Source: Candidatus Methylomirabilota bacterium (GTDB lineage Bacteria; Methylomirabilota; Methylomirabilia; Rokubacteriales; CSP1-6). Taken from it: a stretch of 39,213 nucleotides of DNA. Numbering within the stretch: the stretch's first letter is position 1; every line of letters begins with the position of its first letter. The position numbers and the translations under genes were made by a program. The notes under the pieces are model-generated. The model had not been told where the DNA came from. It did no database searches and worked only from the letters and a program-made list of their open reading frames with translations. Shown here one piece after another: positions 7,331 through 9,211 of this stretch. The stretch covers positions 1 through 39,213 of the forward strand of contig DASTFB010000125.1 in NCBI GenBank assembly GCA_035709005.1, given 5' to 3'.

Positions 7331-7933
7331 ATGCGATCTCTAGTTGTCTCTGTGGCCCTGACCGGAATCCTCGCCTTGTGGAGTTGCGTTCCGAAGGCCA
7401 ACGCCTTCGATCCGCACCAGGCGTTTGCCAAGGGCGCATGGGCGCTCTCGGTCGAAGGGGGCTACGGCGAGCAGGTGAATTTGGGGGATGCCACGATCAC
7501 CGAGCTGGACTTCTTCAATGCCGGCCTCCGTCTCGGGTTCTTCCCGTGGGGTATTGGCGGCCCCGGCCCCCTGGCGGGGGCGCTGGAGATTGGGGTCGAG
7601 CCCCTCTATCAGCGCTTCTTCGATCCGGTCGATGCCTACTTCGCCGGACTTGCCGCGGTGACGCGCTACCACTTCACCTCGCTCGGCCGCGTTGTTCCAT
7701 ACCTCGAGATCGCGGGCTCGGCAGGCTACACGGACCTCAGGGTCCGTGAGCAGGACACGAACTTCGTGTTTCTTCTGTTTGGCGGTGTCGGCGCCTCGTA
7801 TTTCGTCACGGAGCGCACGTCGATCTACGCAGGCTATCGATTTCAACATATCTCGAACGCGGGTATCGACTCTCCGAACCGTGGGATCGACTCGCACACC
7901 GGAGTCTTCGGGCTCTCGATGTTCTTTCGCTGA
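7331..7933 (+). CDS. Lipid A 3-O-deacylase-like outer membrane protein (PagL family)
   Basis: Outer-membrane beta-barrel protein of 200 aa; PagL enzymes remove the 3-O acyl chain from lipid A. A signal peptide covers about residues 1-25 (MRSLVVSVALTGILALWSC, cleavage near ANA-F). Alternating strands follow and the chain ends in the aromatic FGLSMFFR expected of a barrel. The family motif HISNAG is at residues 173-178, giving His173, Ser175 and Asn176, followed by N183 and G185. In Pseudomonas PagL, as I recall it, the third catalytic residue is a Glu 14 residues after the His; here that place is Asp187. Activity is therefore likely but not certain. It may be co-transcribed with the small upstream gene. 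Confidence 0.82.
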   Translation: MRSLVVSVALTGILALWSCVPKANAFDPHQAFAKGAWALSVEGGYGEQVNLGDATITELDFFNAGLRLGFFPWGIGGPGPLAGALEIGVEPLYQRFFDPVDAYFAGLAAVTRYHFTSLGRVVPYLEIAGSAGYTDLRVREQDTNFVFLLFGGVGASYFVTERTSIYAGYRFQHISNAGIDSPNRGIDSHTGVFGLSMFFR

Positions 7934-8071: not shown

Positions 8072-8719
8072 CTACCCCAGGGCCCGCAGGGCCGCTACCG
8101 TGTCGGCCGGCTCCGGGCGCGTCGTGTAATCTGGATCGACGTCGCGCCAGCGAATGATCCCTTGTCGGTCGATGACGAAGCGCGCCGGCATGGGCAGCGT
8201 CCACGAATCGTCGCCGTTGTGCTTCGGCAGGTCGACGGGGAAGGTCTTGTACAACTCGATCAAGTCGTCGGGCAGGCGGAAGACCAGCCCGTAGCGACGA
8301 GCCACCTGGTTGCCCCGGTCGCTCAGGATGTCGAAGGTCAGGTGCCGTCGAGCGATGAACTCCCGGCTGTGGTGCGGGAGCTGCGGCGAGATGGCCACCA
8401 GGGTGGCGCCGGTGACGGTGATCTCGGGAAGCGCGTTTTGTAGAGCCGCCAGCTCTACATTGCAGTACGGTCACCAGCCGCCGCGGTAGAAGGTCACCAC
8501 CAGCGGCCCCCGCGCCAGCAACTCTCGCGAGTTGACCTGACGCTCCTCGGCGTTGGGCAGTGTGAATTCCGGCGCCCGCACGCCCACCCGGGGGACGTTC
8601 TCGACCGCCCCCGACCGCCGCAGGTTATCGACGGCGCGGTGCATGAGGGCAACGACTTCGGGCGGGCGCTTGGCTTCCGCCCGCGCCTTCAGCGCGGCCA
8701 GCTCCTCATTGAGCGACAT
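8072..8719 (-). CDS. Peroxiredoxin-like selenoprotein (in-frame TGA = Sec83)
   Basis: AhpC/TSA-family thioredoxin-fold protein of 215 aa if the TGA at 8473-8471 is read as selenocysteine. Before the TGA the protein runs APEFTLPNAEERQVNSREL and LVVTFYRGGW. After it, in the same frame, come PYCNVELAALQNALPEIT, VAISPQLPHHSREF and the rest of the domain to RWRDVDPDY. Relatives read GGWCPYC here, so TGA replaces exactly the peroxidatic Cys, giving UxxC (Sec83, Cys86). No other stop or frameshift occurs. A perfect 8-bp hairpin begins 11 nt after the TGA and fits a bacterial SECIS. The start overlaps the arsC end by 14 nt. Expected role: thiol-dependent reduction of peroxide or a related oxidant. 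The alternative is a pseudogene with one nonsense mutation. Confidence 0.88.
8439..8459 (-). promoter_or_regulatory. Bacterial SECIS hairpin
   Basis: In the minus-strand mRNA TGTAGAGC pairs perfectly with GCTCTACA around a five-base loop UGGCG. The apical loop starts 20 nt after the UGA. Published bacterial SECIS rules require a small apical loop with a G in the first two positions, about 16-37 nt downstream of UGA; this hairpin satisfies both. The hairpin is seen directly; SelB binding is inferred. Confidence 0.8.
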
Positions 8720-9146
8720 GGGAGTCCCTCCACTCAGCCTTCGTCCATTCGGTGAGTCGCCACTTGATCTGATCGCGCACCCGGCGGAACACCTCTAAGC
8801 GGTCCCCTTCGGAGCCAGCGGCTCGAGATGGATCCTCGAAGCTCCAGTGGAGCCGGGTCGTCGTCCTCGGAAAAACGGGGCACTGTTCATTGGCGCTGTC
8901 GCACACCGTGATCACGTAGTCCCATGGCTCGTCCACGAGCGGGTCGAGAGTTTTCGACGTGTGTCCGCTGAGGTCGATGCCGGCCTCGGCCATCGCTCTC
9001 ATCGCGAGCGGGTGCACGCGTGTCGCCTCGGTGCCCGCGCTCGCCACCTCGAACCGCTCACCGGCCAGGGCACGCAGAAAGCCCTCGGCCATCTGGCTCC
9101 GGGCCGAGTTGTGCGTGCAAAGGAACAACACTCGCTGCTTGCTCAC
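8706..9146 (-). CDS. arsC: Arsenate reductase, thioredoxin-coupled (low-MW phosphatase fold)
   Basis: Cytoplasmic reductase converting arsenate to arsenite, 146 aa. The phosphatase-like loop CTHNSAR holds Cys10 and Arg16, and the relay cysteines are Cys82 and Cys89 in VCDSANEQCPVFP. These are the same numbers as in the Staphylococcus aureus thioredoxin-type ArsC when the GTG at 9146 is taken as start. That GTG has a GGGAGG ribosome binding site six bases upstream, so I prefer it to the more distant GTG at 9179. The conserved DP after WSFED is present. Its 3' end overlaps the selenoprotein gene, and it is divergent from an aquaporin gene, a pairing known from arsenic-resistance loci. No arsR is seen nearby. 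Confidence 0.93.
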   Translation of the reverse strand: MSKQRVLFLCTHNSARSQMAEGFLRALAGERFEVASAGTEATRVHPLAMRAMAEAGIDLSGHTSKTLDPLVDEPWDYVITVCDSANEQCPVFPRTTTRLHWSFEDPSRAAGSEGDRLEVFRRVRDQIKWRLTEWTKAEWRDSHVAQ

Positions 9147-9211
9147 CCTCTGCCTCCCATGTAGGGTCGATTCGGTCACGGAGTGTATACGCCCGATTGG
9201 GGGGCCGCCAA

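Follow-up and report, generated by a model that had tools for sequence, protein, structure and literature searches.

Peroxiredoxin (Prx)-like selenoproteins of the UxxC type have long been known, from the Sargasso Sea in 2005 (PMC1088965) and as "Prx-like 1" in GOS in 2008 (PMC2398784), and a 2026 catalogue (PMC13188914) lists Prx-like (UxxC) under pfam00578 as "Prx-like thiol:disulfide oxidoreductase." For the hairpin that accompanies the UGA, the same catalogue gives a bacterial SECIS (bSECIS) model with an apical loop of 3-9 nt, a G in the first two loop positions, a stem of 4-16 bp, a distance of 16-37 nt from the UGA, and an MFE of at most -7.5 kcal/mol (PMC13188914). Here, we describe a gene in a 39,213-nt stretch of DNA (the window) whose product, judged from its sequence, appears to be a further, well-supported example of this already known group.

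Translation of the minus-strand frame 8719-8072 gave M...GGW-U-PYC...ALG*, a run of 215 codons in which one TGA is the sole in-frame stop, as had been predicted for an otherwise intact gene, with the UPYC motif at residues 83-86 (Table 1). In a profile search, the product matched the Pfam family AhpC-TSA (PF00578; 100.7 bits, 7.2e-29), and its AlphaFold2 model (pLDDT 95.9) has the peroxiredoxin fold, its best match in the PDB being the 1-Cys peroxiredoxin AhpE of Mycobacterium (Z 22.3, rmsd 1.3 over 151 residues). None of the NCBIfam models reached its cut-off for the selenoprotein; the SelL-related and PrxU models matched weakly, far below their cut-offs (22.8 bits for the PrxU model NF040737, with a cut-off of 270). 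Ordinary gene finders would report this locus as two genes, and the case for a single one is well supported.

Table 1. Positions of the selenoprotein gene, its recoding elements, and the overlapping arsC-like gene in the window
Feature	Position	Strand	Remarks
Selenoprotein gene (predicted), 215 residues, Prx-fold UxxC redox protein	8072..8719	(-)	Stop codon 8072-8074; translated with TGA as Sec
In-frame UGA, codon 83, probably read as selenocysteine	8471..8473	(-)	TGA in 31/31 Sec forms; TGC/TGT in 15 Cys-form homologues
Cys86 codon TGC, UxxC partner of Sec83	8462..8464	(-)	Invariant in 48 homologues; aligns with Prx peroxidatic Cys (2cx3, 2ywn)
Candidate SECIS hairpin, stem UGUAGAGC/GCUCUACA, apical loop UGGCG (GGC if U-G pairs)	8439..8459	(-)	Kept in 31 sequences
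arsC-like gene, apparently thioredoxin-type arsenate reductase (LMW-PTPase family)	8706..9179	(-)	PF01451, 1.2e-21

Peroxiredoxins rely on a catalytic Cys together with a Pro, a Thr/Ser, and an Arg. We compared these positions in alignments to solved peroxiredoxins and among homologues, of which the sets comprised 31 Sec forms (the window gene and 30 others), 15 Cys forms, and 48 homologues for the active-site columns. In both 2cx3 and 2ywn, the peroxidatic Cys is matched by Cys86 and the Arg ahead of the last core strand by residue 178; in 2cx3, the Ser three positions ahead of the peroxidatic Cys (the Thr/Ser of TxxC) is matched by residue 83. The ResA alignment places CxxC on residues 83-86 and the Pro of "PLPT" on residue 178. 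Among the 48 homologues, position 79, where the Prx motif has Pro, is Arg in 47 (the remaining one being unread), position 83 is Sec or Cys, position 86 is Cys, and position 178 is Pro in 39, Ala in 8, and Ser in 1, never Arg. The selenoprotein lacks the PxxxT(S)xxC motif and active-site Arg of catalytic peroxiredoxins; it has the AhpC-TSA domain with UxxC replacing TxxU that marks the Prx-like (UxxC) proteins. With Sec83 at the Thr/Ser position, Cys86 at that of the peroxidatic Cys, and other residues in place of the Prx Pro and Arg, the original prediction was mistaken in labeling the Sec "peroxidatic," and a thioredoxin-like UxxC site appears to be the correct reading. The protein is best regarded as a selenol/thiol-disulfide oxidoreductase of the UxxC type built on a peroxiredoxin fold.

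A true selenium peroxidase, in which Sec83 reacts directly with hydroperoxides and Cys86 resolves at a site shifted by one helix turn, strikes us as possible though rather unlikely: fast reaction with peroxide is a general property of selenols, and both the fold and the match to AhpE are those of peroxiredoxins, but the Prx catalytic Pro, Thr, and Arg are all lost, their places being taken by Arg79, Sec/Cys83, and Pro178. The literature also describes UxxC Prx-like sites as thioredoxin-like, unlike those of TxxU peroxiredoxins (PMC1088965). This alternative concerns the reaction alone, not Sec insertion.

The gene neighborhood bears on a second claim, a tie to arsenic. The first 14 nt of the selenoprotein gene are shared with the arsC-like gene, past which lies a divergent aquaporin (MIP) gene. 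Against TIGR02691, the arsC-like product scored 146.6 bits (4.5e-43), under the curated cut-off of 174.3, and it looks thioredoxin-type. A gene for a PagL-like outer-membrane protein (lipid A deacylase family; Pfam 7.7e-18) adjoins the selenoprotein gene at window positions 7331-7933. In tblastn searches of the regions around 20 relatives (roughly 2-5 kb per side, less at contig ends) and of named loci, we found no similar ArsC or aquaporin gene, the 92%-identical relative included. Grouping of neighboring genes with a simple ORF caller, which is noisy in high-GC DNA, returned no conserved neighbor, and neighbors varied by locus. A conserved ars operon was rejected, since ArsC and aquaporin were found at the window locus only. 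Conserved linkage with ars genes was not seen, and the arsC-like gene is probably not part of a conserved unit with the selenoprotein gene. Because neither neighbor was found near relatives, the arsenic link is, on this evidence, confined to the present locus. In this one lineage, the selenoprotein could be imagined as a dedicated selenol reductant for the neighboring ArsC within an arsenic-resistance unit, which, if true, would link selenium to arsenic detoxification; the overlapping frames and the divergent aquaporin of this genome fit such a role, but with neighbors differing from locus to locus and similar ArsC and aquaporin genes missing around the 20 relatives, we consider it very improbable.

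Turning to the recoding signal, bases 15-22 (numbered from the U of UGA) pair with bases 28-35 in 8 Watson-Crick pairs, or 9 with U-G counted, and the loop UGGCG begins 19 nt past the UGA (19-20 nt by loop definition), in agreement with the 8-bp stem and loop first described. This candidate hairpin fits the bSECIS model, with a loop of 5 or 3 nt, 8-9 bp, a distance of 19-20 nt, and -13 kcal/mol for 46 nt, but single-sequence RNA folding did not single it out from shuffled sequences (z about -0.5 to -0.7). A hairpin with at least 8 Watson-Crick pairs at an allowed distance follows 1.5% of all TGA triplets in the 39,213-nt window. By itself, the hairpin is only moderately unusual, and the case does not rest on single-sequence folding. 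What places it far above chance is that the same TGA and stem are kept in 30 other homologues.

Specifically, among 30 distinct Sec-form rows, 18 have CG, 8 UA, and 2 UG at pair 17-33, and 24 have GC and 2 CG at pair 16-34; at pair 18-32, all 30 have A-U or G-U. Four stem pairs never vary, and the outermost pair (15-35) is unpaired in 24/30 rows, i.e., not conserved. In the stem alignment, 87% of the cells were paired versus 27-53% in slid controls, and the stem covariation score, which stems from two pairs and few independent events, was reached by no shuffle. Codons +6 (GAG), +7 (CTG), and +9 (GCT) are invariant across the 31 Sec forms, whereas the Cys forms have mixed codons at these positions. 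GCT (Ala) thus occupies codon +9 in 31/31 Sec forms versus 10.5% of the Ala codons elsewhere in the same genes. Part of the SECIS stem sits inside the codons of the conserved residues E89 and L90.

The in-frame UGA is conserved and has a matching Cys in homologues, codon 83 being TGA in 31 sequences and TGC/TGT in 15. The 30 other sequences that share the TGA, at identities down to 45%, each carry it as a single stop. Among named relatives, Candidatus Rokuibacteriota AR19 is the nearest, its selenoprotein being 92% identical. A match at E 1e-20 or better was present in 33/57 genomes of the family sample, with exactly one TGA wherever the match spans the codon, and every homologue spanning codon 83 in the phylum sample has the same single TGA; homologues of the same lineage showed no further frame damage or decay. 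TGA also stands at codon 83 in homologues from Desulfobacterales and Geoalkalibacter, and TGC/TGT is found in Rhodospirillales, Aquimarina, Rhizobium, Halobacillus, Sphingobacterium, and Kordiimonadaceae (Bacteroidota, Alphaproteobacteria, Bacillota). About half of the sampled Rokubacteria family has the gene, always in the Sec form, and the Cys form is confined to other lineages. The tree sets the Sec forms apart from the Cys forms, with support that is moderate (87/81 and 89/90), so that a single Sec/Cys switch would suffice and may be what happened. Downstream of the TGA, Nei-Gojobori dN/dS was 0.13-0.33 in six pairs and below the upstream value in each pair, and this purifying selection on both sides of the TGA argues that the two halves are kept as one protein.

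The genome is a MAG of Candidatus Rokuibacteriota type (4.59 Mb, 134 contigs, 95% complete), and the proposed search for selA, selB, selC, and selD recovered the whole set. We found a tRNA-Sec (68.9 bits versus a cut-off of 47) with the anticodon tca (UCA), selA (596 bits) ~1.3 kb from it, an intact selB (361 bits) whose 630-aa product has the SelB winged-helix domains, and selD (336 bits), in which an in-frame TGA also occurs. In the family, selA scored above its cut-off in 51/57 genomes. As selA ends at a contig edge (G000:C64:7883-9235) and selB starts at the edge of another (G000:C94:100-1983), selC-selA-selB may be one cluster split by assembly.

That the gene is decaying or sequencing-damaged, with the TGA a nonsense mutation or an assembly error, can be set aside with near certainty: TGA does end other genes of the genome in the ordinary way, among them the neighboring arsC and aquaporin genes, and the hairpin alone is unexceptional, but the same single TGA recurs in the 30 other sequences, also in separately assembled genomes, selection past it is purifying, and the Sec machinery is complete. 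General recoding of TGA was rejected, as TGA terminates the neighboring genes. The selABCD set, the 30 further TGA homologues, the stem covariation, and dN/dS support the original prediction of a functional selenoprotein with a SECIS, and we hold it very probable that 8072-8719 is such a gene and not a pseudogene.

From these conserved parts, we infer that SelB on the SECIS hairpin past UGA83 would deliver Sec-tRNA(Sec), with the ribosome reading through UGA83 to give a single cytosolic chain of 215 residues. Sec83, at a helix start, would act as the nucleophile and Cys86 would resolve, with Pro178 occupying the place of the conserved ResA proline. The most likely cycle would run between the reduced selenol/thiol pair and a Se-S bridge; the substrate may be a disulfide, a peroxide, or another oxidised cytosolic thiol, and the thioredoxin system would presumably re-reduce the selenoprotein.

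The same genome holds at least five further TGA-containing candidates, comprising four thioredoxin-fold genes and SelD. The SelD candidate (G000:C87:189561-190505) has AGUASK and an 8-bp hairpin past the TGA. A second candidate Prx-like UxxC selenoprotein, GYW-U-PFC (L002:1507-2334; G000:C22:23653-24117), has apparent N-terminal membrane helices and is followed by a gene for a small membrane protein; its SECIS-like hairpin has a 7-bp stem and a GGUC loop, and about eleven other family genomes contain a similar gene with one TGA. Two adjoining candidate genes (G000:C87:351030-351910) encode a Prx-type TAP-U and a ResA-like TW-U-PTC protein, the former with Sec at the peroxidatic place and no good hairpin at the usual place (best stem, 3 bp). 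The peroxiredoxin-like candidate GSI-U-TPE (G000:C71:209132-209446) also has its Sec at the peroxidatic place, and an 8-bp hairpin comes after it. Our literature search on selenoproteins of Rokubacteria, which we take to be members of Methylomirabilota in GTDB, found no dedicated study, only a review remark on Methylomirabilota. That this phylum is rich in selenoproteins has been recorded before, PMC13188914 referring to a Methylomirabilota MAG in which 63 selenoprotein genes were predicted.

The main additions of the present analysis are the corrected active-site reading and a clean pair of Sec and Cys forms that can be compared biochemically. With the known Prx-like (UxxC) selenoproteins, the window protein shares the Pfam family, UxxC for TxxU, a bacterial SECIS after the UGA, and widespread Cys homologues; its lineage, Rokubacteria, sets it apart, and the likeness is one of family and motif. 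The Cys-form "FYRGGWCPYCN" proteins of Aquimarina, Rhizobium, and Halobacillus have the same motif and 33-51% identity over nearly the full length, but Cys replaces Sec and the codons after the motif are not fixed. PrxU (NF040737) and other TxxU peroxiredoxins share the fold, but their Sec is at the peroxidatic place, whereas that of the window protein lies three residues earlier. ResA/TlpA oxidoreductases have CxxC and the conserved Pro at the same alignment positions; however, the selenoprotein scores far under the ResA model cut-off, its best structural matches are peroxiredoxins, and its model has an extra N-terminal helical region of ~40 residues.
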